From: Aradus depressus
Taxonomy: Eukaryota > Arthropoda > Insecta > Hemiptera > Aradidae
Length of the DNA: 64,000 nt
Direction of reading: 5' to 3'
Assembly (NCBI GenBank): GCA_963662175.1
Contig: OY759225.1
Span: forward strand, 8,877,107-8,941,106
Below the pieces are notes generated by a model that saw only the letters and a program-made list of their open reading frames with translations, was not told the origin of the DNA and did no database searches. A program made the position numbers and the translations under genes. Shown here in pieces: positions 20,636-55,873 of the stretch (its first letter is position 1; the number at the start of each line of letters is the position of its first letter).

Positions 20636-20668
20636 TCCGGGACGTCTTTACGTCCCTTCATCAGGTCC
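20636..20668 (-). ncRNA. Hammerhead-like core, GGGACGT family
   Basis: Minus strand: CTGATGA, A, then GGGACGT-AAAG-ACGTCCC (seven perfect pairs), then GGAAT in place of GAAAC. The changed GAAA and poor stem I suggest a decayed copy. Flanks match those at 46.8 and 55.8 kb. Confidence 0.6.
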
Positions 20669-20715
20669 ATATGTGTGAAATATAGAGCAGAGAAAGAAAA
20701 CAATGTAACTATTGC

Positions 20716-20901
20716 AGTTACAAAAGCTAATTTATTTTAGTTTTTTTAAAAATATTTTTATTGAGGAGAAACTCACTAACAACATATACACGGATTGTCT
20801 TTTTTTTTAGAATATATGTTTTTTAAATTATTAAAAAATAAATGTTATCAATCATTAATCATATCAACATTCAAAATAATAAAACATGTGGGGGCGCCAC
20901 A
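20716..20901 (-). mobile_element. LTR retrotransposon B, 3' LTR
   Basis: Minus strand: starts TGTGGCGCCCCCACATG after the purine-rich GGGGGAGTGG and ends near GCTTTTGTAACT. Same family as element A. Confidence 0.8.
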
Positions 20902-20918
20902 CCACTCCCCCTCCGGCG

Positions 20919-21305
20919 TCAACGATGGTCGTCCTGGTAGAGATAGGCCCGTTTTAGTCTATCGATGGCCACCGTCACCGCTTTCCCCGCTCGGCTGATG
21001 GTGTATGTGTTCCTCCGGCGATGTTGCACCTCAAAGGGACCGTCATAAGGGGCCACGGCGTCATGTCGGACGAATACGTGCGAGCAGTTTTGCAGATCCT
21101 GACGGAGACTACAGTGGTGGCTGGTCAGTGCTGTTCGCAACATGATCATCGTCTGGCGGAGTTGTGCGACATATTCATGCTCTGGAATCGGCTCTCGATC
21201 AGCTGGAGCTTCTGTTATCATCTCCCCAGAAAGATGAAGGGTTGCTCCATACGTATACTCGGCCACCGAGGCGCCCATGTCCTCGTGCAGCGCCGCTCTC
21301 AGGCC
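20919..21305 (-). pseudogene. Ty3/gypsy-like pol, integrase C-terminal end
   Basis: A minus-strand frame enters from the truncated 5' side with ALHEDMGASVAEYTYGATLH, continues with PIPEHEYVAQLRQTM, then DLQNCSHVFVRHDAV, PYDGPFEVQHRRRNTYTI and VAIDRLKRAYLYQDD, and ends at a stop just before the polypurine tract. The PYDGPFxV and TxxIDRLKPA-like motifs are the usual C-terminal end of gypsy-type integrase, where cDNA is joined to the host chromosome. Everything upstream (gag, protease, reverse transcriptase, catalytic integrase core) is deleted: the 5' LTR joins directly to this segment. It cannot be active. Confidence 0.88.
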
Positions 21306-21865
21306 TAGTAGTTACAAAAGCTAATTAATTTGACTTTATTTTTTTAATATTTTTTTTTGACGAGAAACTCACTAACATCGTGTATATACACTGATTGTTG
21401 AGGGCGCCGGTAGTTCAGTGGTATGCGTGCTTGTCTTCTGAGCTCAAGAACGTCGGTTCGTAACCCGACCGAGGCTCTTAGTTTATTTTATCTGAGGTAA
21501 AATAAACTTAAGCACGCCGTCCTTCGGGTGGGACGCTAAGCAATGGTCCCGAACCTGTACGAAGTCAGGTACTCGTTAAAGACCTCTACCCTACGTGAAT
21601 AAAAATTTAGGGTAAGCAAAATTTAGGACTCCCACAGTAGAGTCGGGCTCATGTCCACCAGAGTGACGAAAGAGCGCTCTGGTAGTAGGCGATATGAACT
21701 CGTAATTAAAGCTCGGGCATGAGTCATAAAACCTAACCTAACATGTACATACACTGATTGTTTTTGTTTTTTTAAACATATGTTTTTTAAATTACTTAAA
21801 AATAAATTATATCAATTATTAATTCAAAATAATAAAACAAATAAATAAAACATGTGGGGGCGCCA
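21306..21865 (-). mobile_element. LTR retrotransposon B, 5' LTR with SINE inside
   Basis: Matches the 3' LTR from TTACAAAAGCTAATT to ACATGTGGGGGCGCCA (plus-strand view), interrupted by a full-length SINE-A. Confidence 0.8.
21400..21743 (+). repeat. SINE-A, full length, inserted in LTR
   Basis: Head to AACCT tail. Flanked by a direct repeat of about 19 bp (TGTATATACACTGATTGTT on the left, one mismatch on the right). Confidence 0.95.
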
Positions 21866-22860
21866 TATAACACTAACAAATACAAATAAAATAATAAAAA
21901 TCAATAAATAAATTTACTTTAAATAATAGTAAGTATAAAATATAATTGAAAAAATTATAATTTTTTTTTAAATAATAAATTTAATAAATAAATAATAGAT
22001 TCAATATATGTCGTCCTTAGAGAGTTCTGGATACAGATATAAAATTTCATGCATTCCCTCTTTCCCGATAAACACACAATGTTTGTTAAACACACAATGT
22101 TTGTTAAACACACAATGTATGTTAAACACACAATGTTTGTTAAACACAATATGTTTACACAAAATTATCAGAGAACACTAATTGGATTTACACAGTTTTT
22201 TAATAGAATTTCAGAAAATAATTAAATCAAAAAATTACAAATAAAAAAGTTATGAGACTTGGAGAAACCATTTTAGAGTTATAGAAATATTTGCATGGGA
22301 GTTGGACTGATTTGAAATCCAAATGGTGTTAAGTTGTTTGGATTCCATTACAAAAGGGGAGAAGTCCCTGAAATCCAAGTCCCTTCAACTTTAATTAATC
22401 CTGTGTCAGACAAACAAACTAAAATTGAAAGTTAAGATTCAAAAAACCCAGCCGAGAGGCAGAGCGTGGATCTTAGAAACACCAAACGTTAAATGGCTGC
22501 TTTGTTCAATGGTTTCTGATTTCAGACACTTTAAATCAACAAGAATTATTTTAAAAAAAAAGTTTTCGGTGTAATCACACGCAATGTACTTCCCCAGAAC
22601 TAATTTTTCAATTAACTCTTTGCTCCCTCTCCAAAACAGTCAATCAATAATTTACCTGGAACTTTTGTGATAATAAAAAAATGTACAATAAAATAAAATA
22701 ATACATTTCCTGTAGAAATTGTTGCTGGTCTTCTACTAAATTTTGCTTTCTATAGTAATTTGCGAAAAGGGTCCTAATAAAAATTTCTAAAATTCAGGAC
22801 GTGCAATTTTGAAGAAAGTGCACGTATTGACCCCTTCCCGTTGCGAATGGGGTCCGCTAC
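21866..22860. other. Non-coding stretch
   Basis: AT-rich; holds an 18-bp tandem repeat (22,071-22,148), a part copy of family R (about 22,565-22,660) and a block (about 22,695-22,850) that recurs near 53,385-53,520. Confidence 0.45.
22071..22148. repeat. 18-bp tandem repeat
   Basis: Four to five units of AAACACACAATGTTTGTT. Confidence 0.9.
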
Positions 22861-22867
22861 TTTGGTT

Positions 22868-23331
22868 TATTTATTTACAGACGCCTGACATGGAATCCTC
22901 ATACTAGACTTAAAAGTCAAGAACTTAATCGATGATACAAACTTTTATTACGACTTTTAGACAACAGATCGAAACTTACATTAAATAATAAAAGACTCAT
23001 TTACAACCAATTACTGAAGTCAATATGGGCGTATGGATCTGAACTCTGGGGCTCAACTAAACCTTCGAATTCTTATAGAATCCAAACCCTACAATCCCGT
23101 ATCCTTCGAAAAATCACAAACGCTCCATTCTACGTCTCTAATGCTATCCTTCACAATGACCTGCAGATTCCCTTTGTAAGGGATGTAATTAAATCCCGCT
23201 ACAGAAAATTCCATTCTACCCTTTCTTTCACCCTAATCCTTTAGTCCGCAGACTTGCCACAAGATCCCTTCCTAATGTTCATGTTCAGAGACTGAGGCGG
23301 CAATGGCCTCGAGACCTACTAGTGGATTGAA
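22868..23331 (+). pseudogene. Jockey-type LINE, C-terminal remnant
   Basis: In one plus frame it reads TWNPHTRLK, then LLLRLLDNRSKLTLNNKRLI, LLKSIWAYGSELWGSTKPSN, SRILRKITNAPFYVSNAILH and LRRQWPRDLL before a stop, with one internal stop and a frameshift near 23,225. This is the thumb and C-terminal part of a Jockey-clade reverse transcriptase, similar in layout to the copy at 19.9-20.6 kb but from another family. The catalytic part is missing. Untranslated T-rich sequence follows. Confidence 0.85.
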
Positions 23332-23544
23332 GACTAATCATCTACAAACGTTTTATGTTTATTTATCATTTAAATATTTTTTTTTTTTGTATATATTTTT
23401 AATTTCTCTTTCTCATCCGTAAATAACAAGATAATGGATGACATTATTAAATGATTTCTCTTTCAACATCCAAGACATTTATTTATCATGTATCACATTT
23501 GCTTGTTATAATATAACATTATAACATTATATTAGAATATAACA

Positions 23545-23549
23545 TTATA

Positions 23550-23619
<70 letters not shown>

Positions 23620-23620
23620 G
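23545..23620. repeat. (TA)n microsatellite
   Basis: About 35 TA units with a few TGTA interruptions. Confidence 0.95.
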
Positions 23621-23649
23621 TTGTAAATACAAAATTTAAATTAAAAAAA

Positions 23650-23790
23650 AAAAAATTTGAACCCCCTTTCCCTTCTGCCGATTTCGCTGAAACTCAACAA
23701 GTATTGTCTTCATGGAGTTTTTTTACTTTAAATATGAAATTTCATGTCGATACATTCATTCTATCGGGAGTTATCGTGTTACTGCAAATT
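23650..23790 (+). repeat. Interspersed repeat family R, partial
   Basis: Holds GCCGATTTCGCTGAAACTCA and CGATACATTCATTCTATCGG. Confidence 0.6.
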
Positions 23791-24012
23791 TGAGATAGGT
23801 GATTACAATTTATATGTGAACGCTTTAGCTAATTCTAAAGTATTACTCCTTTAAAAAAAATGTACAATGAAACAATTTGGATGAGAATTTCGTGAAAGAG
23901 TTGATAATAGGAGTGAGAGAAATGAAAGCAAGGAGAGTAGCTGTGTCTGTGGGTGGTACAGTAATGGGATGCCATTGTCTCTCTTGAAACTTGAGTTGTA
24001 CTAAAAGCATTG

Positions 24013-24955
24013 GACAATCACAAGTGTTGGTTCAAAGGGGCTCTGTCTCCATCGATCATATCACAGAGCATTGCATACCTCAACACTGTCAGTCTGTGAT
24101 ATACACTATCGAAGAGTACTACACTCCATATAGCAATGATATCGATAGATATCACAAGTGTTGGTTCAAAGTGGCTCTGTCTCCATCGATCATATCACAG
24201 AGCATTGCATACCTCAACACTGTCAGTCTGTGTTATACACTATCGAAGAGTACTGTACACGATATAGCAATGATATCGATAGATATCACAAGTGTTGGTT
24301 CAAAGGGGCTCTGTCTCCATCGATCATATCGCAGAGCATTGCATACCTCAACACTGTCAGTCTGTGTTATACACTATCGAAGAGTACTACACTCGATATA
24401 GCAATGATATCGATAGATATCACAAGTGTTGGTTCAAAGGGGCTCTGTCTCCATCGATCATATCACAGAGCATTGCATACCTCAACACTATCAGTCTGTG
24501 TTATACACTATCGAAGAGTACTGTACACGATATAGCAATGATATCGATAGATATCACAAGTGTTGGTTCAAAGGGGCTCTGTCTCCATCGATCATTTCAC
24601 AGAGCATTGCATACCTCAACACTGTCAGTCTGTGATATACACTATCGAAGAGTACTACACTCGATATAGCAATGATATCGATAGATATCACAAGTGTTGG
24701 TTCAAAGGGGCTCTGTCTCCATCGATCATATCGCAGAGCATTGCATACCTCAACACTGTCAGTCTGTGTTATACACTATCGAAGAGTACTACACTCGATA
24801 TAGCAATGATATCGATAGATATCCAAGAGGCTCTGTCTCCATCGATCATATCGCAGAGCATTGCATACCTTAGAACTGTCAGTCTGTGTTATAGTGCATA
24901 CACTATCGAAGAGTAGCAATGATATCGGTAGATATCACAAGTGGGAGTGAATAAT
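24013..24955. repeat. 134-bp satellite array
   Basis: About seven head-to-tail units, near 97% alike by eye, each with AGTGTTGGTTCAAAGGGGCT, CATCGATCATATC, CTCAACACTGTCAGTCTGTG and GATATCGATAGATATC. The last unit is shortened and rearranged (from about 24,822). The period is not a multiple of three, so frames of 118-136 codons recur in every unit; these are by-products of the repeat. Confidence 0.93.
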
Positions 24956-25074
24956 CGATTGAAAACAATTTCGTCGGAGAATCTCCAGCTATAATTCCCC
25001 AGCAAGAATTAATCAGTTCACAGGTTGTCAAATAAGATGTAGTCTGACCTCTGACAGATTTTTTATTTGTATTA

Positions 25075-25110
25075 GCTAGCCGGCTTTCGAGATTTCCCTC
25101 ATCATCAGGC
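25075..25110 (-). ncRNA. Hammerhead-like ribozyme variant
   Basis: Minus strand: CTGATGA, T, hairpin GAG-GGAAAT-CTC, GAAA, then stem III AGC-CG-GCT and A as the cleavage-site base. Stem I shows two pairs (GC before the core, GC after the site). No ORF nearby to name the host element. Confidence 0.6.
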
Positions 25111-26637
25111 AATCTGAAAAATATGTATATATATTTTTTAATTTGAATGAAAATTAATATATTTTATTAAATAAAATTAAAATTTTTTTATAATAAAAAT
25201 AAATAAATAAAACTATCTAAAAACTTTGATTTTCAGTCAAATAGGTCAAAGGGAAATTGTGGATTAGGGAAGGATTATATCTAAAAACCTTAATAATTGT
25301 CGATTTAATGAATGTATCGATATGACATTCAGTATCCAGTAAGGACTTCACCTACTGATTTTCAGCAAAATGAAACGAAGAGAAAAGAGGGTTTAGCGGT
25401 GGGGGCTCAACTCAGAACCCTAACTAGGCAAACAAATGGCAGACATCCTCTTTCGGTTGTCTCCATAAAATTAATTTCTTCAAGCATATTATATTAAATA
25501 CAATTTTGAACTCTTTCAAATTTTTTTTTTCAGTAATAATAAATTATTTACTCAAAATGAATCCTATGGTATTTTTTTTTTAAATATTCGTAATGAATTA
25601 CGTAAAACTGACACAAGATAATAAGCTACTGTTACAAATATAGGTAATTATCGTCATCTATATTTCCTTGTTAATACTTGATGTAAGGGTACCTGCTCTT
25701 GTCTCAATGCTGTTAATTTGCTGGGTTTGGTGGATCCTCCTCTGAAGAAGAGTCATCGAACCCCCATGGAGTCACATGACTCGAAGCGAGGAGTCCAACT
25801 AGGGACACATGAAGAATCATGTTCACTATTCAAGAAATAAAAACAGAGATCCTTCTGTATACATACATAGTTGGCAGAATCTGGAACATCTGTGTTGACA
25901 TTACCTGCAACACGCGGGGAGGTTCGTTTTGAATTAGAATATAAAAGATATTTTGAAGTCATCAATTGTGTAAATAAAGCCATTTTTATTTGACTCAAAA
26001 AAATATAACGATATTTTTTTACACTGTCATTAATTAAAATATTTGTGTAAACATTTTTTTTTTTTTTCGTAATGTTTGTTTTTGAAAATTTACATTCTAA
26101 TAGTAATAACTTTTCATCTATATATATATAATATAATAGTCTTTTCCGAAACGAAAATAATACGATTTTTATCGAATCGACAATAATTCATTGTTTATAA
26201 AACTGTCAGATTTTTGTTTACACTAAACGTCTCATAACTAACTTCACGTTAATTTAAAAAAATAGCCATTGCAACGACCGGCGGGTTTAGCTGGTCGATT
26301 ATACAACTTTTCCTATACTTTGTATAAATCTAGGGAAGTAAAAAGTATTGTATACAAAGTTAGAAAAATAGTAACAGTGAGATTAGTACTAGACAGTGTT
26401 ATCTGTTGAAATAATCAGTAGTGTTAGAGAGATAAAAAGCAGGAGTGACAGACAAGAAGTGTCTCTCTTTCAACAACACATTAATATTACAACAACATTT
26501 CCCTCAGGTCCCACAAAATTACTTTTCAAAGAAAATTTTATTTTCTGTTCGCTTTCATCTTTTTTTTCACCCTTTTTTATTATTTTATTTGGTTTGAAGA
26601 CATGGATACTTCACTACAAAACATGTAACCCTATGAT
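25111..26637. other. Non-coding stretch
   Basis: Includes a part copy of family R in reverse (about 25,255-25,400) and AT-rich sequence. The minus-strand frame at 25,753-25,998 resembles no known family. Confidence 0.45.
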
Positions 26638-26709
26638 CAACTTCTAAGTTGAGGAACGCCAGTTATAAATACGCGGTTATCCAGTTACAAATACGCGGCC
26701 TTTTATTCG

Positions 26710-27363
26710 ATGTTCCACAGAGCCTACTCAATTCCAATGACCCAACAATCAAAAGATAAAGAACTTAAGATTATTAAGGAAATAGCCAAAAACAATAGCT
26801 ACCCACAAAAAACAATAAATAAAATTGAAAAGAAGGTCAAAAATCATAATTTTAGGAACAAACTGACCAAATTAGAAACACAAAATAAAGTTTATAATAA
26901 ATGGGTCAGCTTAACTTACCACGGAAAAATTTCAGAAAAAATAGGTAAAGAGTTGAAAAAAGAAGGCTTCAATATCGGGTTTAAAACTATCAATCCCATA
27001 AGCCAGTGCCTAGAGAGAGGTAGGGACAGAACAGATATTGAGAATAAAAGCTGTGTTTATAGTCTAGAGTGTGCGACGTGCAGTCAATTATACATTGGAC
27101 AGACAGGACGTCGTTTTAGGGAAAGAATTAAAGAACACACGGCCGAAATAAAGAACCGAGGAAACCGTTCTACATTCGCGACCCACATAATTGACAATAG
27201 CCACACTTTCGACCCATCTACAGGCATCAAATATCTCCATTATTGCTCAAAAAGCAGGCTACTTAATAGCTTAGAACAATTAGAAATAAATAAAGCTAAC
27301 AAAAGGAACATTTGTATGAATGAACAAATTTATTTCAACTATTCCCCTTTGTTAACACCCTGA
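26710..27363 (+). pseudogene. Penelope-like element, thumb plus GIY-YIG endonuclease
   Basis: An open frame of 217 codons. The first part (MFHRAYSIPMTQQSKDKELK, NNSYPQKTINKIEKK) fits the end of a Penelope reverse transcriptase (thumb and linker). The second is a GIY-YIG endonuclease: CVYSLECATCSQLYIGQTGR, RFRERIKEHT, RSTFATHIIDNSHTFD, and SLEQLEINKA with the likely metal-binding Glu, ending SPLLTP. Penelope elements use this domain to nick the target. The catalytic RT part is missing, so the copy is 5'-truncated although this frame is intact. The left boundary is near 26,638, where the element's end sequence CTTCTAAGTTGAGGAACGC appears. A hammerhead-like motif lies 330 bp downstream. Confidence 0.88.
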
Positions 27364-27690
27364 TCCAGTTCTGTTTCCACACATATGTTTGTATTATCTG
27401 TTATTAATATTTGGTTCCACATATATATTTAATGTTATCTAAATCTTAATATTATTATTAATTTTATTTATATTTTTATTATTTATTTGTATTTGCACTT
27501 ATTTATTTGTTGTTTTGCCACGATTAGTCTAGTAATATTGTTTTATGTAAATTTAGAACTAGGTTTTGTTAGGAAATATTTCATGAGTTAGCTAACGGTA
27601 CAGCCGGGGGGCTCCCAAGTTTTAATAGCACCCTTTCACCCGAGATGTATTAGAAGGGTCGCTCTCTGCAAACTGACTTAGTTCATAACT

Positions 27691-27727
27691 AGACCTGACG
27701 ATGGTATAAAGCCGAAACCGGTAGTTA
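27691..27727 (+). ncRNA. Hammerhead-like ribozyme variant, Penelope family 1
   Basis: CTGACGA, T, hairpin GGT-ATAAA-GCC (one G-U pair), GAAA, stem III AC-CG-GT, A at the cleavage site, and stem I of three pairs (GAC with GTT, one wobble). It lies in the 3' region of the Penelope copy; a (TA)n run follows. Confidence 0.7.
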
Positions 27728-28489
27728 TATATATATATATATATATATCTACAGGAGAGCAATTTTGAACTGAAACAATTGCAATATAATAAAAACCAGC
27801 TGAAAATTGAAAATGGCCCTTTTTCCATTGGAAAAAAAAATGAAAACAGAAAGACTTTTTTTACGATTTGTTTATTCGAAAGTAAGGTCGGAACATAAAA
27901 AAAATTTGATGATTAATACAAAAAAACTGCAAAATTAGTGACTTCTGTGAAGGTATTTTATTTATTTAATTATTATTTTAAAAAATTTTCTTTATCATAC
28001 TACTAAAGATAACATAGGCCCTTCTTCCACGTCACCTTCTCCGTTCGTGCCTTCATTAATCAAGGTGCATGGCATCTATTGGCAGAGTATTTAACTTAAA
28101 ACTATGCAGGTGCTTGCTCCACATCACATAGATCCTTCTTCCATGAAAAAATGGTTTTTCAAAAAATCATGACATAGGCCCTTTTCCAGACACCAATTCA
28201 ATTGGTTTTTGTTTGGCGCGCAGCCAGGGTCATAGCGCCGATACGGTTAACAATATTTAAATAAAAAAAATGATAACAATAATAAAGGGGAAACAAATTA
28301 TTATTGTTTTTTTTTTCCCCCCAACCAAACAACAGTAACAAGCCTGAGTGTACATTCAGTTCAGGAAACGAAGTGTCACTCAAGAAGCATGAGGATACTC
28401 CGACGAATCGTTCATAAACTATTGTATGCAGAGGGATATCAGAGCAGACTTGAGAGACAATACGATGATCGACCGACCGCCCCAATTTT
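27728..28489. other. Non-coding stretch
   Basis: No gene or repeat family recognised. Confidence 0.45.
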
Positions 28490-29159: not shown

Positions 29160-29720
29160 CATACCAGGAGAACGGCACTTCTCCGCTGTGATCACAAAGG
29201 GCCCAAAATAACAGGGAAGGCATTCTTATAGCTCAGATTTAAATGGTTTTTATTTTTATTTTTTTGTTTCGTTATCCAATAATAATGAAACAAAATAATA
29301 CCCCTGACGCCAACTCATTACTTTCATATAATCAGTAAAGTAAGTATGAAATGATTTTGAGAAGGGAGAGAGATAGTGAGTGATCTGTAAGCGTGGTTGG
29401 TATCAGAAAGTCCTGTAATAAACACATCACATATATTTTTATATTTATATTTATTTTTTTCATTTTTGTGCATAATTACTCATTGTGTATATAATTATTG
29501 TTATTTTGAACGTATTCTTCTTTACAGAGACATTTTTATTTTTTACGTGTTTATTATTATACATATTGCCGTATATTTGTTTCACTTTATATTATTATCC
29601 ATAATTATCAAGAAATTTACCCATGGTTATTATCGATTTTATATATACCAGTCTGAGTGAGAGAATGAAAACTGACATTATTGCAGAGATATTGTGAAAT
29701 AATTCAAATGAACTTGAAAT
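29160..29720. other. Non-coding stretch
   Basis: The segment 29,330-29,430 recurs near 37,165-37,260 and, inverted, near 63,720-63,810. No gene. Confidence 0.4.
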
Positions 29721-29773
29721 AAATAAAACTTGTTTATTTATGATATTGTCTAATTTCACCAACTATATTTACA

Positions 29774-29809
29774 TGGGAGTACTTTCGGTATTTCTATCAT
29801 CCTCAGCCA
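29774..29809 (-). ncRNA. Hammerhead-like ribozyme variant, left arm
   Basis: Minus strand: CTGAGGA (variable base is G), T, then GATAGAAATACC, a four-base hairpin with one mismatch relative to the other arm, GAAA, stem III AG-TA-CT, C at the cleavage site, stem I of three pairs (TGG with CCA). Confidence 0.68.
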
Positions 29810-29922
29810 AAAGCATAAGAGATAAGACTAAGTTAACATTACAGAATGTCAGCCTCTGGGTAATGGGTTCCTCGAGAGGCTGACATTCTGTAATGTTAAC
29901 TTAGTCTTATCTCTTATGCTTT

Positions 29923-29958
29923 TGGCTGAGGATGGTAGAAATACCGAAAGTACTCCCA
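29923..29958 (+). ncRNA. Hammerhead-like ribozyme variant, right arm
   Basis: CTGAGGA, T, hairpin GGTA-GAAA-TACC (perfect), GAAA, stem III AG-TA-CT, C at the cleavage site, stem I of three pairs. AGTACT is a self-complementary hexamer, as expected if two molecules pair through stem III. Confidence 0.7.
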
Positions 29959-30082
29959 TGTAAATATAGTTGGTGAAATTGGACAATATCATAAATAAAC
30001 AAGTTTTATTCCTTTCAAATTCATATACCTTACAAATAAAAAATGAAAAAAAAACTTATTTAAATAACTATTTCCTTTTATA

Positions 30083-30403
30083 AGTTTAGGATTTAGGTTT
30101 TATGACTCATGCCCGGGCTTCAACTACGAGGTCATATCGCCTACTACCAGAGCGCTCTATCGTCACTCTGGTGGACATAAGCCCGACTCTACTGTGGGAG
30201 TCCTAAATTTTGCCTACCCTAAATGTTTATTCACCTAGGGCAGGGATCTTTAACGAGTACCTGACATCGTACAGGCTCGGGGCCATCGCTTAACGTCCCA
30301 TCCGAAGGACGGCGTGCTCAAGTTTATTTTATCTGGGAGGTATATAGATAAAATAAATTAAGGGCCTCGGTCGGGTTTCGAACGCACGATCTTGAGAGAC
30401 CTC
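30083..30403 (-). repeat. SINE-A copy, 5'-truncated
   Basis: Ends at the B-box region. Flanked by TTTCCTTTTATA (30,071-30,082 and 30,404-30,415). Confidence 0.92.
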
Positions 30404-34665: not shown

Positions 34666-34966
34666 ATATTTTTTTTTTTTTTTTTTTGCTGTGTAGAGTG
34701 CTTTGTGCACTGGAAACAGAAATAAAGTTGTGTTTTTAAAATAATATATGTTCCCTGCCTCCATGTTTCCGGTTTTGTTGTTATTGTTATATGCTTCAAT
34801 TTTTTTATTATTATTGCGCGTTTTGCGCTGAACCACCTAAAAGTTTTTCTTTCCTTATGCTTCAAATGAAAATATTTCATTTGTCTTAGTTTTTGAATGA
34901 AAGTGCGAACAATTCTTATAAGTAAACCAGGTAGGTAAGGAAAGGATGATGACTATTGAGGGGATC

Positions 34967-35236
34967 TTCTTAGTTGAGGAACGCGGACATATTGTGCAAT
35001 TTGTAATAAATAAAACAAACTTATTTTTTGAAATATTGTCTATTCCACTAAAGATATTTATAAAAATAAATCTACTTAGTTCATAACTAGACCTGACGAT
35101 GGTGTGAGGCTGAAACCGGTAGTTTTATTTTTATAAATATCTTTAGTGGAATAGACAATATTTCAAAAAATAAGTTTGTTTTATTTATTTATTACAAATT
35201 CCACAATATGTCCGCGTTCCTCAACTTAGAAGTTGA
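34967..35236. mobile_element. Penelope terminal palindrome with hammerhead centre
   Basis: Arms of about 100 bp (CTTAGTTGAGGAACGCGGAC ... and its complement) enclose a 20-bp spacer and one hammerhead-like motif. The right arm equals the 3' region of the GIY-YIG copy at 54.2 kb, tying the palindrome to that Penelope family. No coding sequence. Confidence 0.82.
35089..35125 (+). ncRNA. Hammerhead-like ribozyme variant, Penelope family 1
   Basis: CTGACGA, T, hairpin GGT-GTGAG-GCT (wobble pairs), GAAA, stem III AC-CG-GT, A at the cleavage site, stem I of four pairs (AGAC with GTTT). Confidence 0.72.
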
Positions 35237-35420: not shown

Positions 35421-36192
35421 CAAACAGATATTTACAACTGCATAAAATCTAATACAACAAGCAAATGTGCTAATGGAGAAATAATATTTTATTTATTGAG
35501 GGGATGGTTTATATATTATATCGGAAATGTACGAGGAGTCTGTGACAATAGGAACTGACAGGTTATATAATAGTCTGAAATTAAGATGATCTAATATAAA
35601 TTTGAATAAAGAAGATGAACTACAGTTTACAGTTGTGTTCATGACCGCACAGGATGAAATGTTTAGAACTATCAGAGCTCAAGCCACATAAAACTCGAGC
35701 TACCTCGAAGGTTATAAGATGAAAAACACAATTTAGCTTTATCTGTCCCACTTTAACCTGTATTCCTTTATAGTTCAATTTCCCAGATGAGGATAAGCTT
35801 GCCTTTCTGTTAATGGAGATACACTCAGTATAATGTTAGTTCTTGTTATAACATATAACAGACATGGGGTCACAGACGAAGAGGATAAGGAGTCTCAAGT
35901 CTCAGTCTATCTTACATGTCCGAATACATTTTTTACGTTTTGTGTCGATATAGTGAAAATACTAATAAATAAAATTAAAAAGATGATAAAAAAAAGTATT
36001 TTTATATCGAACATTTCATTTTAGTCAATAAGTATTGATGTCAATAGATCATAGATCAAATATTCTTCTACTCAGACATATAGTAATACAGCACATTCAT
36101 GTTATGTTATATTGATTTCATAGAACTTATTATATTTTTATATTATTTTGGTTTCTTGTAATTTTTTCGTTTTCAAGTATATCCACAGTTAG
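35421..36192. other. Non-coding stretch
   Basis: Nothing recognised. Confidence 0.45.
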
Positions 36193-36406
36193 AGGGCGCC
36201 GGTAGCTCAGTAGTATGCGTGCTTGCCTTTTGAGCTCAAGATCGTGGGTTCCAAACCCGATCGAGGCCCTAAGTTTATTTTATCTGGGAGGTAAAATAAA
36301 CTTAAGCACGCCGTCCTTCGGATAGGACGTTAAGCGATGGTCCCGAGCCTGTATAATGTCAGGTACTCGTTAAAGACCCCTGCCCTAGGCGTATAAAAAT
36401 TTAGGA
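36193..36406 (+). repeat. SINE-A copy, 3'-truncated
   Basis: Complete GGCGCC head and both boxes; ends after AAAAATTTAGG. Confidence 0.92.
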
Positions 36407-36477
36407 CCATAAACTAATTACTCAAAACTATATCAGTCTTTTTTTCTGTTTTATTATTGGCCATTATTTATATCGAT

Positions 36478-36780
36478 GTTATTTTGGGCATATATATGTA
36501 CCTACATATAAATAAATAAAGGTACTTTTGCGTAGTACAACTTAAGCCTAAAAAACACTTCTCTCTCTGACTGTCCTACTCCACAACACAACTTAGACTG
36601 TTTCACACTATTTAAAACAGCAGATCGTCGTCTTTTGTTCTCCATTCATTGGTTGTTCACATTTCGTTTTAAAACAAAATGCGACTAGTCCATTTTTTAA
36701 TATTTATTCGCTATTTAAGTTACTTAACTCCTAACAGCTGTTTTTATATAAATAAATATAATTAATTTTATAATATGTAT
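36478..36780 (+). repeat. Repeat family T (possible solo LTR)
   Basis: Shares with 40,618-41,225 and 53,845-54,045 a TTTTGGGCATATATATG start, TATAAATAAATAAAGGTAC, CACTTCTCTCTCTGACTGTC, GACTGTTTCACACTATTTAA and CTAACAGCTGTTTTTAT. TATA-like box near the start and the lack of coding sequence suggest a solo LTR, unproven. Confidence 0.5.
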
Positions 36781-36792
36781 ATTAATACTCTT

Positions 36793-37134
36793 AGGTTAGG
36801 TTTTATGACTTATGCCCGGGCATTAACAATGAGGTCATATCGCCTACTACCAGAGCGCTCTTTCGTCACTCTGGTGGACATGAGCCCGACTCTATTGTGG
36901 GAGTTCTAAATTTTGCCTACCCTACATTTTTATTCATCTAGGGTAGGGGTCTTTAACGAGTACCTGACATCGTACAGGCTCGGGACCATCGCTTAACGTC
37001 CCATCCGAAGGACGGCGAGCTTACGTGTATTTTACCTCCCAGATAAAATAAACTAAGGGCCTCGGTCGGGTTACGAACCCACGACCTTGAGCTCAGAAGT
37101 CAAGCACGCATACCACTGAGCTACCGGCACCCTC
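36793..37134 (-). repeat. SINE-A, full length
   Basis: Flanked by ATTAATACTCTT (36,781-36,792 and 37,135-37,146); inserted at the end of a family T copy. Confidence 0.95.
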
Positions 37135-37146
37135 ATTAATACTCTT

Positions 37147-38374: not shown

Positions 38375-38843
38375 GATGTTGATTAGCGACTGTAGATTCT
38401 AATTGTAGGAATATTGAGGGTCAGTCAAAGATGGAAAAAAACACTATTCAGATGCCAACGTTTCGATATATTTTATATCATCATCAGGGCCTACAAACAT
38501 GGGGGGGAATCAAGATTAGAATCAAAAATGAACAAAAAAAAAAAAGTTTTTTGTTGATAAACATTACTGAAAAAAATACACTATAACAAGTTAAAAATTG
38601 AAACTGACTTACTATGAATAATTACTAAACATTAAAATTAAATATGAATACATTACTAAACATAAACATTAATAATGGAAATAGACAAATAGGTGGAACA
38701 TAATAAAGAGTAAACATTAAAATGACTTACTATGAATAAGCAGGGTTGGGGAGAAGACATGTACACTGAATGGAGTCTTACATTGCAATGAAATGGTAAA
38801 AAATAATACTAGGGTGCTAAAGGAAACAGGTACAGGGAGCTCG
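38375..38843. mobile_element. Hammerhead-bearing insertion inside the Merlin transposase
   Basis: The transposase sequence GAAACATTGTATACAAAG at the left recurs as GAAGCATTGTATACAAAA at the right, an imperfect target duplication of about 15 bp. The 470 bp between them have no long frame and hold one hammerhead-like motif. The long duplication indicates retroposition, fitting a short Penelope-type derivative. Confidence 0.7.
38454..38490 (-). ncRNA. Hammerhead-like ribozyme variant with loopless stem III
   Basis: Minus strand: CTGATGA, T, hairpin GATATA-AAA-TATATC (six perfect pairs), GAAA, then ACGT, T at the cleavage site, stem I of three pairs (GCC with GGC). ACGT leaves no room for a loop, so stem III can only form between two molecules. 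Confidence 0.7.
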
Positions 38844-40617: not shown

Positions 40618-41225
40618 GAACTTTTATATTTTGGGCTTATATATGTGCATATAAATAAAAAGTAGGTACATTTTCTCTTTTACGTATTTCCAATGTTATA
40701 ATTTATCTCCTCTACATCTTCTCTCACTCAGACTGGTTCACTACACCTCAACCCTAAAAACACTTCTCTCTCTGGACTGTCCACTTTCTCATCTCAACTT
40801 AGACTGTTTCACACTATTTAAAACAGCTGTCGTCGTCTTTTGTACTCCATTCATGTTTGTTCATATTTCGTTTTAAAACAAAGTTCATCTTTGTATATTT
40901 ATTCACTATTTAAGTTACTTCTCTAGGAGGTAAAATAAACTTAAGCATGCCGTCCTTCGGATGGGACGTTAAGCGATGGTCCCGAGCCTGTACGATGTCA
41001 GGTACTCGTTAAAGACCCCTACCCTAGATGAATAAAAATTTAGGGTAGGCAAAATTTAGGACTCCCACAGTAGAGTCGGGCTCATGTCCACCAGAGTGAC
41101 GAAAGAGCGCTCTGGTAGTAGGCGATATGACCTCGTAGTTAAAGCCCGGGCATGAGTCATAAAACCTAAGTTACTTCACTCCTAACAGCTGTTTTTATAC
41201 AAATAACAATAATTAATTCTATAAT
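40618..41225 (+). repeat. Repeat family T with SINE inserted
   Basis: Same blocks as 36,478-36,780; the copy is interrupted at AAGTTACTT by a SINE-A. Confidence 0.55.
40921..41169 (+). repeat. SINE-A copy, 5'-truncated
   Basis: Starts at CTAGGAGGTAAAATAAAC, lacks the tRNA-like head, has the AAAACCTAA tail. Flanked by GTTACTT (40,914-40,920 and 41,170-41,176). Confidence 0.93.
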
Positions 41226-46757: not shown

Positions 46758-46800
46758 CCAACTATGTTTCAGGACGTTCTTACGTCCCTTCATCAGGTCC
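46758..46800 (-). ncRNA. Hammerhead-like core, GGGACGT family
   Basis: Minus strand: CTGATGA, hairpin AGGGACGT-AAGA-ACGTCCT with one bulged G, GAAA, short stem III AC-ATA-GT, T at the site. Stem I closes with only one pair, so cleavage in this form is doubtful. It lies about 230 bp after the stop codon of the LINE frame on the same strand. Confidence 0.6.
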
Positions 46801-47431: not shown

Positions 47432-47434
47432 AAA

Positions 47435-48312: not shown

Positions 48313-48763
48313 TAATTTAATAAAGAAAAGTACTTTCTTCCTGGAATTCACTTTCAATTGTCAATTCTTCTATATCGTTCCTTTCCTTATTATATTCTTA
48401 TATACTCGTATATGCTAATCTGTCATAGTTAAGTCTAACTGCCTCTAAGAGTGGGCTGACAAAAAACAACAGTGGCGTCCAGAAGAGCAGAAGAAGGGGC
48501 GTTACCTGCCACCCATCCTCCCTTCCGCGAAGTAATGACAGGCGTCTGTTCCGCGGAAGGAAATCAGGATCGTCATAGGAGGGTTTTTTAGTGGGTATGG
48601 AGCCACGGCTCAAGTCACACACTATCCAGGGCTATCTATCTAAAAGTGCATAAAAAGTATTTCCCTACTGCAAAAAAAAAAAATAATAAATAAATATATA
48701 TATATGTACACTTTTTTAAACACTTATGTCTCTATCATCACTGTGATATCACTTTGTTCATGT
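48313..48763. other. Non-coding stretch
   Basis: No gene. The end of this stretch may belong to a diverged family T copy that continues past the SINE (about 48,690-49,230). Confidence 0.4.
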
Positions 48764-49104
48764 GAGGACGCTGGTAGCTCAGTGGTATGCGTGCTTGTCC
48801 TCTGAGCTCAAGAACATGGGTTCGAAACCCGACCGAGGCCCTTAGTTTATTTTAACTGGGAGGTAAAATAAACTTAAGCACGCCGTCCTTCGGATGGGAC
48901 GTTAAGCAATGGCCCCGAGCCTGTACGGTCAGGTACTCGTTAAAGACCCTACCCTAGGTGAATTAAAATTTAGGGTAGGCAAAATTTAGGATTCCCACAG
49001 TAGAGTCGGGCGCATGTCCACCAGAGTGACGAAAGAGCGCTCTGGTAGTAGGCGATATGACCTCGTAGTTAAAACCCGGGCATGAGCCGTAAAACCTAAC
49101 CTAA
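48764..49104 (+). repeat. SINE-A, full length
   Basis: Flanked by CTTTGTTCATGT (48,752-48,763 and 49,105-49,116). Confidence 0.95.
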
Positions 49105-49769: not shown

Positions 49770-49771
49770 GT

Positions 49772-49920
49772 AATCCATTCATCCTGAGGCACCTAAACAA
49801 TCCTTTCATCCTGTGGCACCTAACCAATCCGTACATTCTGTGGCACCTAACCAATCCGTACATCCTGTGGCACCTAAACAATCCGTACATCCTGTGGCAC
49901 CTCACCAATCCGTTTTTTAC
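49772..49920. repeat. 27-bp minisatellite at the intron start
   Basis: About five units of CATCCTGTGGCACCTAACCA + ATCCGTA beginning a few bases after the splice donor of the beat-like exon. Confidence 0.92.
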
Positions 49921-50293: not shown

Positions 50294-50680
50294 TGAATCA
50301 TGCCAGGACTTCAATTACAAAGTCCTATGGCATACTTTTTTTTTTTTTCAACAACGCCCAACCTTCTATGGAATTTTCTCCCTTTGGGCTGTTAGAAGGC
50401 GGTTGGGAGAGGGTGGAGGGGGGGGGGGGGCTTTTGGCGCTCTAGCCCATACGCCCATCACGGCCCCTAAAATATCGCCTAGTACCAGAGCGCTCTTTTG
50501 TCGCTCTGGTGGGCATGAGCCCAACTCTACAATCGGAGTCCTAAATTCTGCATATCCAGGTTTAGTTACATAAAGTAAAGGGGTCTTTTAAGCTCAAGAC
50601 CAACGTCCCATCCGAAGGATGGCATGCTCAAGTTTTATTTACCTGCTGACACGCTACTTCTGAGCTACCGAGCTCAACTC
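50294..50680 (-). repeat. SINE-A copy, worn and interrupted
   Basis: The tail side (GAATCATGCCAGGACTTCAA) and the body (ATCGCCTAGTACCAGAGCGC) are separated by about 130 bp at 50,338-50,470 with a long T run, an inverted CCCAACCTTCT / AGAAGGCGGTTGGG pair and a G12 tract. Confidence 0.75.
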
Positions 50681-50689
50681 AAAAGCCCT

Positions 50690-51218
50690 GAAAGTCAACG
50701 AGGGAGAGCGAAAACGCTGTCGATTAATTTGTGTTGGGGAAGTACATTCTAGATGAGTTTTTGTTAGAAAATGTTTGAGTGAAGAATGAGTTTGAACTAT
50801 TAATGACTGTTATTAGATTTAGTTTGGTCTGGTTTGTTAGTAGAGTCCAAAGACACATTAGTTCTGGGATGACCCGGGAGGAGGGTAGCAAACCCCAGGA
50901 TCTGACCCTAAATGTTCCCAATCCTCTCCCTATAGCCCTGTAATTAAGGTTAGCCATTACCGGGATAATAGCCAAACACTCCTTTAGTCGGGATCCCCCC
51001 CCCCCCCCCTCCAATGTCTTCCATTTCCTATCCTATAAACTTATACATATAAAATTTCAGACAGCAAAATAAAAAAAAATCGTCTGTGAATCGTAAAATA
51101 TTTTATAAAAAATGAAAATTTTTAATTGGAAAAACTCAAGTCAAATTATTTAAAAAAAAAATATTGAAAATTATCGGAAAAATAACATAGGTGAAAATAT
51201 GTGCCTTTTATATAAAAA
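50690..51218. other. Non-coding stretch
   Basis: Part copy of family R in reverse near 50,690-50,750; a C13 tract near 50,996-51,009. No gene. Confidence 0.45.
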
Positions 51219-51613
51219 CTAGCAGTAATACCCGGCGTTGCTCGGGGAACTTTGACTTTTCTCCCAATATCTCCTATAAGGCTATTCAGTTCCTCGACAG
51301 TACATTCATGATGTTATAATTTTCAATTATTCATACGGAATAAGACTTATAGTCCTTCAACTATAGCAACGCTAGCTTTGGAGCTAAAACTAATTTATTC
51401 AAAAAGATTTCTCATTAATCGTTGCAATGGTTTTTGAGTTACAAAGATTGCGTGAGTGGATGCTGGGATGGACCAGATATTGAGGTACTAATACGCCTAT
51501 AACCTTCCACAGACGATGACGAACAAATTAAAAAAAAAATTAATCAAATCCATCAAGCCGTTCGTGAGTTATAGCGGTACAACGCACAGACATTTTCAGC
51601 TTTATATACATGA
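51219..51613 (-). mobile_element. Helitron-like element, non-autonomous
   Basis: Same family as the element at 47.9 kb, opposite orientation, roughly 90% alike by eye. On the minus strand it starts A|TCATGTATATAAAGCTG and ends TATTACTGCTAG|T, so both A and T of the Helitron target are visible. The terminal hairpin is slightly mutated. Confidence 0.88.
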
Positions 51614-51878
51614 TGGTCCGGGAAATGTTATTGAAAAATCGGTTTTGGAGTGATTCAATCGAAACATACCTGTTTCTAGGCCGATGCTTCAAGAAAGTTC
51701 TCAAGAAAGTTCACTCAACAAATGAACAGAGAAGTTCAAAGTTTCCATCGGATTGGTCCGCTTCAAAACTAGACACAAAACTGTGTTTAAAACCCCTCCT
51801 GAACGGAAACTCCCTCTATTACGTACAAAAATACATCCTCATAGAAATAAAAGATGTCTTCACACTGTTTTATTATTG

Positions 51879-51920
51879 ACCGGAACCGGTTTTCGACGCA
51901 ACAGCGTCATCATCAGTGGT
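51879..51920 (-). ncRNA. Hammerhead-like ribozyme variant, left arm
   Basis: Minus strand: CTGATGA, T, hairpin GACGC-TGTT-GCGTC (five perfect pairs), GAAA, stem III AAC-CG-GTT, C at the cleavage site. Stem I is ACCA with CGGT: first position mismatched, three pairs remain. Confidence 0.72.
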
Positions 51921-52373
51921 TCATCTATCATAGAATAACAAAATATACAAATAATAAAAAGTATAAATAACTCTTAAAGCATCAGGGTATAGAGTAACAA
52001 GATAAAAATTAAAAAATTAACTTACCCCACCCATACAGCACAGCGGTTAAAAGACAACTGGCATAGCACTAAGGGTTGGGGATAGCTAGGTTCACTCACT
52101 CTCTCAACATGCAAAAACCATTCATTCTATTATGTAGAGACTTGTTTTGGTTATTGTATATATTTGAATGAATGGTTTTTGCATGTTGAGAGAGTGAGTG
52201 AACCTAGCTATCCCCACCCCATAGAGCTATGCCAGTTGTCTTCTAACCGCTGTGCTGTGTGGGTGGGGTAAGTTAATTTTATAATTATTATCTTCTTACT
52301 CTGTACCCTGATGCTTTAAGAGTTATTTATACTTTTTATTATTTGTATATTTTGTTATTCTATGAGAGCGAGA

Positions 52374-52415
52374 ACCACTGATGATGACGCTGTTGCGTCG
52401 AAAACCGGTTTTGGT
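52374..52415 (+). ncRNA. Hammerhead-like ribozyme variant, right arm
   Basis: CTGATGA, T, hairpin GACGC-TGTT-GCGTC, GAAA, stem III AAC-CG-GTT, T at the cleavage site (52,411), and a perfect four-pair stem I (ACCA at 52,374-52,377 with TGGT at 52,412-52,415). This is the best-formed copy in the window. Confidence 0.8.
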
Positions 52416-52458
52416 CTAAAATAAAACAGTGGGAAGACAATGTCTTTTATTTCTTTAG

Positions 52459-54222
52459 AAAAAGTAAAACGTATGATGTGGTACTACAATAAGCTCTTGT
52501 ATCTGTACCAGTGGCTTAAATTAAAAATCCTCCTTCTTACCCTAACTGCTGCCGTCTCTTCGGCAGAGAAGACAGAGCTCCTTTGAGATTTGATAAGGGT
52601 GTTTACCTGATTCTCATGTCCCTTAATTTGGTTTGCAAAAAGGGCTCGTCGGGTTTAATCAGAGTCGCAGCAGGAGGGTGGTGGCCCTAGGATAAGGTGG
52701 CTGCTGTGTATTCTTCTTCGCCATCTTTAATTAATTCTCTTCCATTCACTTCCCTTAAATCACCCCGAAAGCTCTCTCAGATTTAAGGCAATTAAACGAA
52801 AGGTGAGAAAATGTTCCTGTGAAGGGCCTCTAGTCATGAAGAAAGTCTCAAAAAATAATGCTATATAATAATCTTATAATTATTATTCCTGTACAGATAA
52901 TAACTACTGCATAATATGCAGACCTCATAAGAAAACCTCGTAACTCCAAAAGTTGAAATTTTAGAGGAGGCACGAAATATTTATTTTCCGTTCTCGCTGT
53001 GGTATTCCTCAAACTTTTTCTCCAATAACCATTAATCCTTTGACATGATACAAACATATTATGGGGGTTTCTGTGATTCTGTGATGGTTAGTTGACAGGT
53101 TTTCTAGCAGATAGCAACAAAATCTGAAATTCACAAAAAATGGAGTTATGAGGTTTTCTTATGAGACCGACGATATACAGGTAATAAGGATCACCCCTTA
53201 TGTTTTGAAACGGTTCAGTTATGGGGTGTGGTAAAAAAAAAAATACGAGGTTTAAGTGTTAAACTTAAATAAATGATAAATAAATAATAATGAAATAAAC
53301 AATAATATTATTTATTATTTATTTATATTAATAATAATATTATTTATTATTTTTAATTATTTAATTAAAACAAAAAGAAACAATAAATTACCACATTTCC
53401 TGTAGAAATTTTTATCTCTTTTCTTTTACTAAATTTTGATTTCTACAGTAGTTTTTCGAAAAGAGCCCAAAAAAGTATCAAAAGTTCAAGACGTGCAATT
53501 TTGAAGAAAGTGCACGTATATTTAAAAAAAATTTCAATTAACAAACTTTTCATTTGGATTTCTAAAGAGATGTCATTGTCTTCTAAATTTTGCAAAAATA
53601 TGAAATATAATCCAAAGGTATTCAAATAATCTTATTGGGCCAACAGGGAAAATTAATAGAATATAATTTTATAGAACAAATATTGGGTTTATTTTCTTAA
53701 ATCTACATTAATTAAAATTAAAAAACTAAACATTGAAACAACCAAAAATCAAAAGAAAAATCTTAAAAACTAAATTCTTGACACTAATTCAATTTTTTTT
53801 TTTTTGTTTTATATTTTGGCTATTTTTTAAAATTTAAGTTATATATTTCTGGGCATATATCCTGTACATATAAATAAATAAAAGTACCTTCTTTTTGGAT
53901 CAATTTCACCGTCAATTCACTTCTATTAGTTCATTGCAATTTAAGCCTCCACTCTACCTACTACACACCCTAATAAAACAGCTGATGGCCGTGTTTTGTT
54001 TTTTTATTGGCATTTGTTTTAAAAGAAATGGTTTCTTATTATTTATTTATTAATTATTTTTTCTTTTGGTGGAAAAATAAAATGTATTTAATATTTAATA
54101 TAATATAAAAATATATAAATATATAATTATCTTTTTATCACTCACTGAGTTTTTACACGACAGAACCTCGAATTCCTTCTATATATTCCTTATTAACACT
54201 TCAACAAAAAATAGTTGAATAA
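52459..54222. other. Non-coding stretch
   Basis: No gene. 53,385-53,520 repeats the block found near 22,695-22,850; 53,845-54,045 is a diverged family T copy. Confidence 0.45.
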
Positions 54223-54555
54223 ACCGATATTGAGAATAAAAGCGGAGTTTACAGCTTAGAGTGCGCGATGTGCAGTAAATTATACATTGGACAGACGGGA
54301 CGTCGTTTTAAAGACAGGATCAAGAAACACACAGCCCAAATAAAGAACCGAGGCAACCGTTCTACATTCGCGACTCACATTATTGACAATAGCCACACTT
54401 TTGACCCATCTACAGGCATAAAATATGTCCATTGTTGCTCTAAAAGCAGGCTACTTGATAGCTTAGAAATATTAAAAATAAATAAAGCTACCAAAAGGAA
54501 CATTTGTATGAATGACCAAATTTATTTTAACTATTCCCCTTTGTTAACACCCTGA
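54223..54555 (+). pseudogene. Penelope-like element, GIY-YIG endonuclease only
   Basis: About 110 codons: DIENKSGVYSLECAMCSKLY, IGQTGRRFKDRIKKHT, STFATHIIDNSHTFD, SLEILKINKA and the end SPLLTP. It aligns along its full length with the copy at 26.7 kb, about 85% identical by eye, and is open without a break. Its 5' end is lost in the middle of the linker before the endonuclease, so no start codon belongs to it. A hammerhead-like motif lies about 265 bp downstream in the shared 3' region. Dead by truncation. Confidence 0.88.
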
Positions 54556-54819
54556 ACCGGTTCTATTTCCACATATACCTATGTTTGTTATTATCTGTTA
54601 TTATTATAGGTTTCCACATATATGTTATTATCTGTTATGTTTTTTAGTTTTTTACTTATTAGTCAAAGGATGTTATTTTATGTAAATTCATCATATCTCA
54701 ATCATATATTTCATGATGTAGCTAACGGTTAAGCCGGGGGATTCCCTAATTGAAGTGGCACCTTTCACCAGAGATGTATTGGAGGGGTCGCACTCTGCAA
54801 ACTAACTTAGTTCATAACT

Positions 54820-54856
54820 AGACCTGACGATGGCGTGAGGCCGAAACCGGTAGTTT
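54820..54856 (+). ncRNA. Hammerhead-like ribozyme variant, Penelope family 1
   Basis: CTGACGA, T, hairpin GGC-GTGAG-GCC, GAAA, stem III AC-CG-GT, A at the cleavage site, stem I of four pairs (AGAC with GTTT, one wobble). ACCGGT is self-complementary. Confidence 0.75.
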
Positions 54857-54915
54857 TATTTTTATAAATATCTTTAGTGGAATAGACAATATTTCAAAGA
54901 ATAAGTTTGTTTTAT

Positions 54916-55398
54916 CATATTTCTGACAGATTAAATAACTTCCCCTATACTTCGTGGGTGAAAGATTGAAAAAAATGTCTTTATTTATTAATTTTATTTT
55001 CAAAAATAAATTCAATATTGACTTCTAGTATAAGAAGAAAGATGGGCGGGGGAGGTCCCGCGGGAAATGGATAGGCTGGTGAGAAATGAAGAAGAGCTGG
55101 ACTGATGCTCCTGGGATGAAGCCCGCCCGCGTTAAAGATTGATTGATCCTGCCATGATGTCCCTTATCGCGGCATGTCTCCTCCCAGACTCCAGATTCAC
55201 CCGGCTTACTTCAATACACTCCCGCCCTTATCCCTAGTCGCCCTTTCATCAGGGTGGGAGAGAGTGCGAAACAATCCTGTACACCGCTCCGAAAAACTCG
55301 ATCAAATATGTATCTTTATATTTGAAACAGTTACGATTACGATACCAAAAAGAAAGAAGACTTTCGAATAACTAAACATTACTCTTCTCTTTTTGAAA
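54916..55398. other. Non-coding stretch
   Basis: A GC-richer block (55,020-55,290) without a supported frame. Confidence 0.4.
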
Positions 55399-55566
55399 AA
55401 AAGTATAACTCATAAAGGAATTAATTTATTTAATGCCCTTCCACACTTCTTGAAATCAATAGATACAATAAAAAAATTTTAATTTCAACTAAAAATGTTT
55501 ATGTTAGAGGAAACCCTTTACACGGAAACGGAATTTTATTCTCATTGTTCAAAAGGAATAAAATAA
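55399..55566 (+). pseudogene. LINE open reading frame 2, C-terminal tail (second copy)
   Basis: Reads KSITHKGINLFNALPHFLKS, IDTIKKF, one stop, then FQLKMFMLEETLYTETEFYS and a final stop at 55,564-55,566. It is the counterpart of the frame at 47.0-47.4 kb and shows the NALP motif more clearly. The 3' region that follows (GGGCAGAGTTCCTCCACACC, AAAGGTCAGTCCAATGTAC) also matches and leads to a hammerhead-like core at 55,831. Upstream coding sequence is not recognisable. Confidence 0.65.
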
Positions 55567-55830
55567 CCACAATAAAAAAAAAAATCGTGTTTCATATCTA
55601 AAAAACATTATTTGATACAAAGCTTTCATTTTTCTTTTTGGGCAGAGTTCCTCCACACCTTAAAGGTCAGTCCAATGTACCTTATTGTTTTATTTATTCA
55701 TTTATAATTTTTTATTTATTTACACGTTTTTATATATTCATTTTAAATTGATTAATCTATATACCTATCAATTTTTTTTATGTATTCTTACAGTTACATT
55801 GTTTTGTTTTTTCTTCTATATCGCACATTG

Positions 55831-55873
55831 GGACCTGATGATGGGTCGTCAGAACGTCCCGAAACATCGTTGG
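55831..55873 (+). ncRNA. Hammerhead-like core, GGGACGT family
   Basis: CTGATGA, T, hairpin GGGTCGT-CAGA-ACGTCCC (one mismatch), GAAA, stem III AC-ATC-GT, T at the site. As in the 46.8-kb copy, stem I closes with only one pair. It is 265 bp downstream of the LINE stop codon. Confidence 0.62.

Follow-up and report, generated by a model that had tools for sequence, protein, structure and literature searches.

Probable dimer-type hammerhead ribozymes at the 3' side of Penelope-like retrotransposons in Aradus depressus

Features of the window

The window analysed here is a stretch of 64,000 nt from Aradus depressus, within which all positions are counted. It contains twelve hammerhead-like ribozyme cores, which an earlier note had pointed out from the sequence alone, together with two GIY-YIG endonuclease segments of what are most likely Penelope-like retrotransposons. 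Self-alignment grouped the twelve sites into six families, namely A (27695, 35093 and 54824), B (20664, 46796 and 55835), C1 (29806 and 29926), C2 (51916 and 52378), D (38487) and E (25108). Since the copies within one family are not independent of each other, the fair number of window sites is six families, not twelve. The features were as follows.

26653..27363, plus strand: GIY-YIG endonuclease end of a Penelope-like open reading frame (ORF) (Pfam PF01541, E 1.8e-06), same element as the ribozyme at 27695
27691..27727, plus strand: family A hammerhead, CTGACGA, extra T, stem II GGT/GCC, GAA, stem III ACCGGT, H17 = A, stem I of 3 bp (GAC/GUU)
35089..35125, plus strand: family A hammerhead, stem II GGT/GCT
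34966-35232: palindrome enclosing the ribozyme at 35093, its left arm being the inverted tail without ribozyme
54223..54555, plus strand: GIY-YIG endonuclease fragment (PF01541, E 3.2e-07), same element as the ribozyme at 54824
54820..54856, plus strand: family A hammerhead, stem II GGC/GCC, stem III ACCGGT, stem I AGAC/GUUU
5624..5879: family A tail-only inverted pair, no ribozyme core
29923..29958, plus strand: family C1 hammerhead, stem III AGTACT
29774..29809, minus strand: family C1 hammerhead on the other arm, stem III AGTACT, one stem II pair broken
29708..30024: C1 head-to-head pair, one long and one short end by eye
29664 and 30042: candidate 8-bp duplication of the C1 pair, AATGAAAA
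52374..52415, plus strand: family C2 hammerhead, stem II GACGC/GCGTC, stem III AACCGGTT, stem I ACCA/UGGU
51879..51920, minus strand: family C2 hammerhead on the other arm, first stem I pair A-C
51843..52454: C2 head-to-head palindrome of about 612 nt, no 8-bp flanking duplication found
38454..38490, minus strand: family D hammerhead, stem II GATATA/TATATC, stem III ACGT, stem I GCC/GGC
25075..25110, minus strand: family E hammerhead, stem III AGCCGGCT, stem I of 2 bp
55832..55871, plus strand: family B hammerhead-like copy, stem III ACAT (non-palindromic), stem I GAC/GUU
46760..46799, minus strand: family B copy, extra base A
20628..20667, minus strand: family B copy, decayed core GGAAT, extra base A

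Hammerhead-like cores

All twelve cores listed in the earlier note were present in the window. The positions it gave were off by 6 nt on the minus strand, where the cores start at 51916, 46796, 38487, 29806, 25108 and 20664. As it had described, CTGANGA and a single extra base ahead of stem II were found in 12 of 12 cores, and a cleavage base other than G followed by a short stem I was observed. The GAAA after stem II existed in 11 of 12, with GGAAT at 20664, and the claim that stem II stays paired held fully for ten of the twelve (G-U pairs counted as paired), one pair each being broken at 29806 and 55835. CUGANGA and GAA, joined by stem II, make up the core of the hammerhead in the window copies.

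The expectation by chance was taken from 300 dinucleotide shuffles of the window, with both strands scanned. Cores that combine one inserted base with a stem II of 3 bp or longer numbered nine against 0.09 expected, and those whose stem III, directly after GAA, is self-complementary over 4 nt or more numbered eight against 0.007; the C1 core at 29806 was recovered neither by the pattern scan nor by this chance-test scan. Only one core without insert was found (0.12 expected), which is the one at 55835, and it can also be parsed as a one-insert core, in which 6 of 7 pairs of stem II are formed.

Stem III, stem I and covariation

Stem III had been described in the earlier note as a stem of 2-3 bp. 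Instead, it was a perfect palindrome without loop in 9 of the 12 window copies, which represent five of the six families; it was absent in the three B copies. The palindromes in the window were ACCGGT (A), AGTACT (C1), AACCGGTT (C2), ACGT (D) and AGCCGGCT (E). The genome (697,738,979 bases in 74 contigs, both strands searched) added family F, with ACCGGT but another stem I and loop, and family G with ACTAGT, so that stem III is palindromic in 7 of 8 families with six different sequences. The printed genome copies of C2, D, F and G keep the loopless palindrome, a few with point changes. Thus the self-complementarity of stem III is kept while its sequence changes between families. A stem III without loop needs a second RNA, of the same strand, as its only possible partner, and in this respect the palindromes point to dimers, as the earlier note had suggested. 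In cofolding, all 11 sequences gained 3-14 kcal/mol as dimers, a weak indication, as the calculation covered the ribozyme pairs alone.

In all 11 sequences tabulated, the base after the palindrome, H17, was A, C or T and never G; A15.1-U16.1 was present, and stem I adjoined C3 and H17. Covariation was examined with one hand-picked sequence for each of the eight families. At the register set by the palindrome, 23 of 24 stem I pairs were formed (20 of 21 without family B, which has no palindrome to fix the register and for which the best-fitting one was chosen), while sliding stem I by 1 to 4 nt either way (eight offsets) left 6-13 of 24 pairs. With partners shuffled among the eight families the mean was 11 pairs, and none of 20000 shuffles reached 23. 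For stem II, 24 of 24 pairs were formed against a mean of 18.1 with shuffled partners, and 2 of 20000 shuffles reached 24. Both stems therefore covary between families, in agreement with the earlier statement that they remain paired despite differing sequence.

Penelope-like elements and copy number

In family A, two of the three ribozymes follow a GIY-YIG ORF at a distance of about 0.3 kb, and 27030-27742 aligns with 54222-54871 through both the ORF and the ribozyme. At a C2 locus elsewhere in the genome (L307), a GIY-YIG-like ORF was revealed between the arms, by a match (E 0.0074) too weak for the Pfam cut-off. From these two lines the host elements are most likely Penelope-like, and the link drawn in the earlier note is upheld for family A and more weakly for C2. 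Protein searches with the GIY-YIG ORF gave no match, and neither did those with an unrelated ORF.

In the genome, the C2 28-mer had 2064 matches, the GGC/GCC stem II pattern 2398 with the extra base and one without, the D 29-mer core 1213 and the B stem II pattern 1156, and the E 30-mer had 27 exact copies, counting both strands. The five patterns together gave 6,858 occurrences, and the reversed pattern of each gave none.

Insertion structure of genome copies

Loci were sampled from the first places listed on contig C1 (a contig label, distinct from family C1), so the sample is not random. One set held 60 loci, with 22 C2 close pairs, 18 C2 single cores, 15 F/G pairs and 5 F/G single cores, and ten further loci belonged to family D; 37 of the 60 and all ten D loci had been picked for two nearby cores. 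Among the listed places, close neighbours stood head-to-head in 22 of 22 cases for C2, 16 of 16 for F and G together and 16 of 17 for D. BLAST alignment of the 60 loci gave 52 pairs arranged head-to-head, and within 1.5 kb no neighbour stood in tandem or tail-to-tail order; even among the loci picked as single cores, 15 of 23 had an inverted partner, some of them tail only.

In 40 of the 52 pairs each 3' end was located at one of two fixed sites, 39 pairs being short plus long and one long/long, and at least 39 mixed pairs of 40 would be obtained under independence with p 3.6e-11. The long end exceeds the short end by about 26 to 50 nt, in stretches rich in A and C. A flanking duplication of at least 8 bp (median 12 bp) existed in 35 of the 40 pairs, compared with 3.9% for shuffled flanks; all 35 were of the mixed type, and the long/long pair had none. 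Of the ten D pairs, six were mixed, two had one unclassified end, one was long/long (L310) and one short/short (L312). L310 was scored long/long by gapped alignment and short/long by eye, and the mechanical score was used in the counts. Seven of the ten carried a duplication of at least 8 bp, and that of L312 is 8 bp long. For the C2, F, G and D samples combined, 45 of 48 pairs with both ends classified had one long and one short end, a tally that leaves out 12 of the 52 pairs and 2 of the 10 D pairs, in which at least one end fell at neither site. Among the first 100 of 939 exact C2 long tails there was one neighbour pair within 2 kb, which is locus L307, without duplication. Inverted pseudo-long terminal repeats (pLTRs), short target duplications and a tail, the arrangement expected of Penelope elements, were present in the sampled C2, F, G and D loci.

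The arms of one pair differed less than arms of different pairs (0.91 within against 2.09 between pairs in C2, 1.2 against 3.7 in G and 0.2 against 0.5 in F), and they were identical at family variants in 15 of 23 C2, 3 of 9 G and 4 of 5 F pairs. Such sharing is compatible with a single RNA that was copied twice, or with a pair of transcripts from one locus. The C2 3' ends lie at about 100 and 137 of the query arm, and the predicted cut falls after 54 (hand count). Since both ends are downstream of it, the inserted RNAs were uncut at that ribozyme. A few truncated arms end near the predicted cut (e.g. L264, L272 and L301), and in the copy at 27695 the similarity to related copies is lost a few bases beyond H17.

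The palindromes that the earlier note had pointed out are of the kind that genome copies present as insertion units, with two inverted copies placed in one event. The C1 palindrome, which looks mixed, is the one in the window with a candidate duplication; the C2 palindrome and the 35093 locus had no 8-bp duplication at their flanks, and the AT-rich repeats that surround 5624-5879 make duplication hard to judge there. The Rfam microRNA family RF04170 matched 52035-52258 at 100.6 bits, which is likely a hairpin artefact, because the score is below the gathering score of 200 and the match lies inside the C2 palindrome.

Snap-back copying of one complementary DNA was also considered and rejected, as it predicts equal ends and long plus short ends were seen.

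Proposed mechanism and alternatives

The explanation that we consider probable is that the motifs are small dimer-type hammerhead ribozymes at the 3' side (the pLTR region) of Penelope-like retrotransposons, with predicted cleavage and dimerisation. Each unit would be composed of CUGANGA, one extra nucleotide (mostly U), stem II, GAA, a loopless self-complementary stem III, H17 and a stem I of 2-5 bp. Two RNAs would pair through stem III to give a double hammerhead, in which each unit is expected to cut after H17, as the known chemistry of the class suggests, and the likely job would be the processing of tandem or multi-unit Penelope transcripts. Reverse transcription would start once at each of two fixed sites, one for each broken DNA end, so one event would place two inverted copies with a single duplication round both, as judged from the pairs with both ends classified. 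The interpretation of the earlier note thus survives in its architecture, covariation, Penelope association and dimers, and has to be changed in the form of stem III and in the species-specific extra base.

Several observations weigh against this explanation. Rfam gave no match at all at its gathering scores in the window, and no hammerhead at either of two thresholds. No hammerhead was found by Rfam either in 10 of 10 viral-contig loci picked for no-insert cores; Rfam also misses such canonical-looking cores, so its negative result carries little weight. For the single strand, the fold of minimum energy was often another than the hammerhead. Family B has no palindrome in its genome cores, with ACAT in 12 of 13 and ACGT in one of 13. 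The Penelope assignment of B, C1, D, E, F and G comes from the shared 3' architecture only; for C2, locus L307 is a long/long pair without duplication, and two further C2 loci had ORF pieces that matched nothing in Pfam. Eight of the 23 single-core loci were without an inverted partner. In addition, cleavage by the hammerhead of PAc, a Penelope-like element of Anolis, required protein and was dispensable for insertion in vitro (PMC11167929).

Another reading, to which we give about an even chance, is that each event copies a single RNA twice, starting at two sites, one for each DNA end, and that the ribozyme has no part in integration. It concerns insertion and is therefore compatible with the dimer-type hammerhead explanation. 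It would account for the 45 of 48 classified pairs with one long and one short end and for the similarity of arms within a pair, and PAc has two adjacent start sites of reverse transcription, with both strands cut and extended (PMC11167929). However, the arms differ at family variants in 8 of 23 C2 pairs (e.g. L259, L288, L291 and L302) and 6 of 9 G pairs, which may reflect later mutation or two templates, and the short/short pair L312 carries a duplication of 8 bp.

The retroviral dimer initiation site, which links two genomic RNAs, offers a comparison for a third reading. The palindromic hammerhead would here be mainly a dimer linkage that holds two Penelope RNAs, so that one RNA-protein complex primes both target ends, and cleavage would be secondary. 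Retention of the palindrome while its sequence varies would be expected under such a linkage, as would the sampled head-to-head pairs with one duplication round both arms, the inserted RNAs left uncut at the ribozyme, and the insertion of PAc without cleavage (PMC11167929). We nevertheless regard it as unlikely: variants are shared more within a pair than between pairs, as expected of a single RNA copied twice, the near-fixed long and short ends arise more simply from one RNA with two start sites each used once, and a mere linker would not need the core bases of a full ribozyme. More tentative still is the idea that stem III might link two Penelope RNAs in one integration complex, each target end being primed at one of the two start sites, and that the ribozyme might be kept as a pairing device timed by its own cleavage.

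That stem III is a short hairpin within one RNA is very improbable. By eye, ACAUCGU of family B could fold as a 2-bp hairpin, but nine of the 12 window copies and the printed C2, D, F and G genome copies have no loop bases between GAA and H17, and the stem I pairs break outside the register set by the palindrome.

Extra base before stem II

The earlier note had taken the extra base as constant and as part of the fold in this species. It was constant in this genome for the GGC/GCC pattern (the counts with and without it given above cover this stem pattern only), and it was not unique to the species. By eye, the base was T in 97, A in two and C in one of 100 listed GGC/GCC matches, and about 71 T and 29 A in 100 listed copies of family B. 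Among the matches listed for viral contigs, a hammerhead with a stem I of at least 5 bp could be parsed in 39 of 98 distinct cases with one insert and in 97 of 132 without, and T was the extra base in 37 of the 39. The viral-contig hammerheads carry the extra base too, so it is not special to Aradus depressus.

The least probable alternative is that the extra U supplies the Penelope ORF with its start codon (A9-U-G10.1). In its favour, the U variant reads ANGATGG, the ORF of PAc reportedly starts at stem II and the family B frame is open over the 16 codons of the sequence used. Against it, the frame meets a stop within 12 codons in A, F, G, C2, D and E and after 14 codons in C1 (one sequence each), A replaces U in about 29 of 100 listed B copies, and viral-contig hammerheads carry U as well. 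For the six families with the early stops the start codon was rejected.

In family B, the frame through A9-U-G10.1 was open across the ribozyme for 16 codons (L318-L329 and 55835), as described for PAc. Coding may explain the non-palindromic stem III of this family.

Viral-contig motifs and other repeats

Hammerhead-like motifs whose stem III is a hairpin were numerous in viral contigs, among others at loci L002, L003, L004, L011, L012, L015, L019, L020, L024 and L028; some have an extra U after A9 and others do not. Rfam 15 at gathering scores gave no hammerhead in 20 viral-contig loci with such motifs, many of which may be unlisted. Four viral contigs (L184, L189, L193 and L226) carried 3-5 no-insert motifs each, spaced by a few hundred to about 2000 bases.

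A tandem array of 134-nt units, mostly 91-98% alike, was located at 23883-24893 of the window. Another repeat family existed in both orientations at 21397-21741, 30088-30387, 36191-37139, 40830-41203, 48763-49104, 56537-56912 and 58414-59478, the last of which includes an inverted pair with 345-nt arms at 58443-59478.

Comparison with known systems

Small hammerhead variants of Penelope-like elements, described by Lunse, Weinberg and Breaker (RNA Biol. 14:1499), reportedly cleave as dimers. The present motifs resemble them in reduced stem III, Penelope association and dimer logic. Metazoan retrozymes are non-autonomous units in direct tandem; no same-strand neighbours within 1.5 kb were found here among the 60 loci.

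Penelope hammerheads in which helix III is small or absent have already been described (PMC6155905). Hammerheads of Aedes and others with a palindromic stem III and a loop III were proposed to act as dimers (PMC3088659, Figure S8 legend); palindrome and proposed dimers are alike, whereas in A. depressus the whole stem is palindromic and there is no loop III.

PAc carries a hammerhead in the pLTR, a GIY-YIG enzyme and two start sites of reverse transcription 3' of the ribozyme, and both DNA strands are cut and extended (PMC11167929). The elements of A. depressus are similar in the pLTR hammerhead, the GIY-YIG domain, the two 3' start or end sites and the two-sided insertion. The long-end extension may be equated with the Penelope tail, and the two ends with the two start sites of PAc. 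The uncut state of the inserted RNAs is in line with insertion of PAc without cleavage. Two differences were found. The PAc ORF starts at stem II, whereas the corresponding frame stops early in six families here, and for PAc no difference between strands in the start site was reported, whereas the sampled insertions nearly always have one of each.

Penelope families of Adineta vaga have head-to-head inverted pLTRs, duplications of 8-10 bp and a tail optionally on one pLTR (PMC3846280). Arrangement and duplications are alike, while the tail called optional there corresponds to a near-rule of one long and one short end here, which is stricter than the printed "optional tail". In that paper self-priming on an antisense template was favoured, and the word hammerhead is absent from the main text. 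The near-fixed rule itself was not found in a search confined to one open library of papers, in which PMC3846280 comes close.

PAc insertion in vitro needs no cleavage (PMC11167929), which bears on what the hammerhead does for Penelope elements. With eight naturally covarying families, thousands of copies and a countable insertion signature, A. depressus would make it possible to separate cleavage, RNA pairing and the use of two start sites of reverse transcription.

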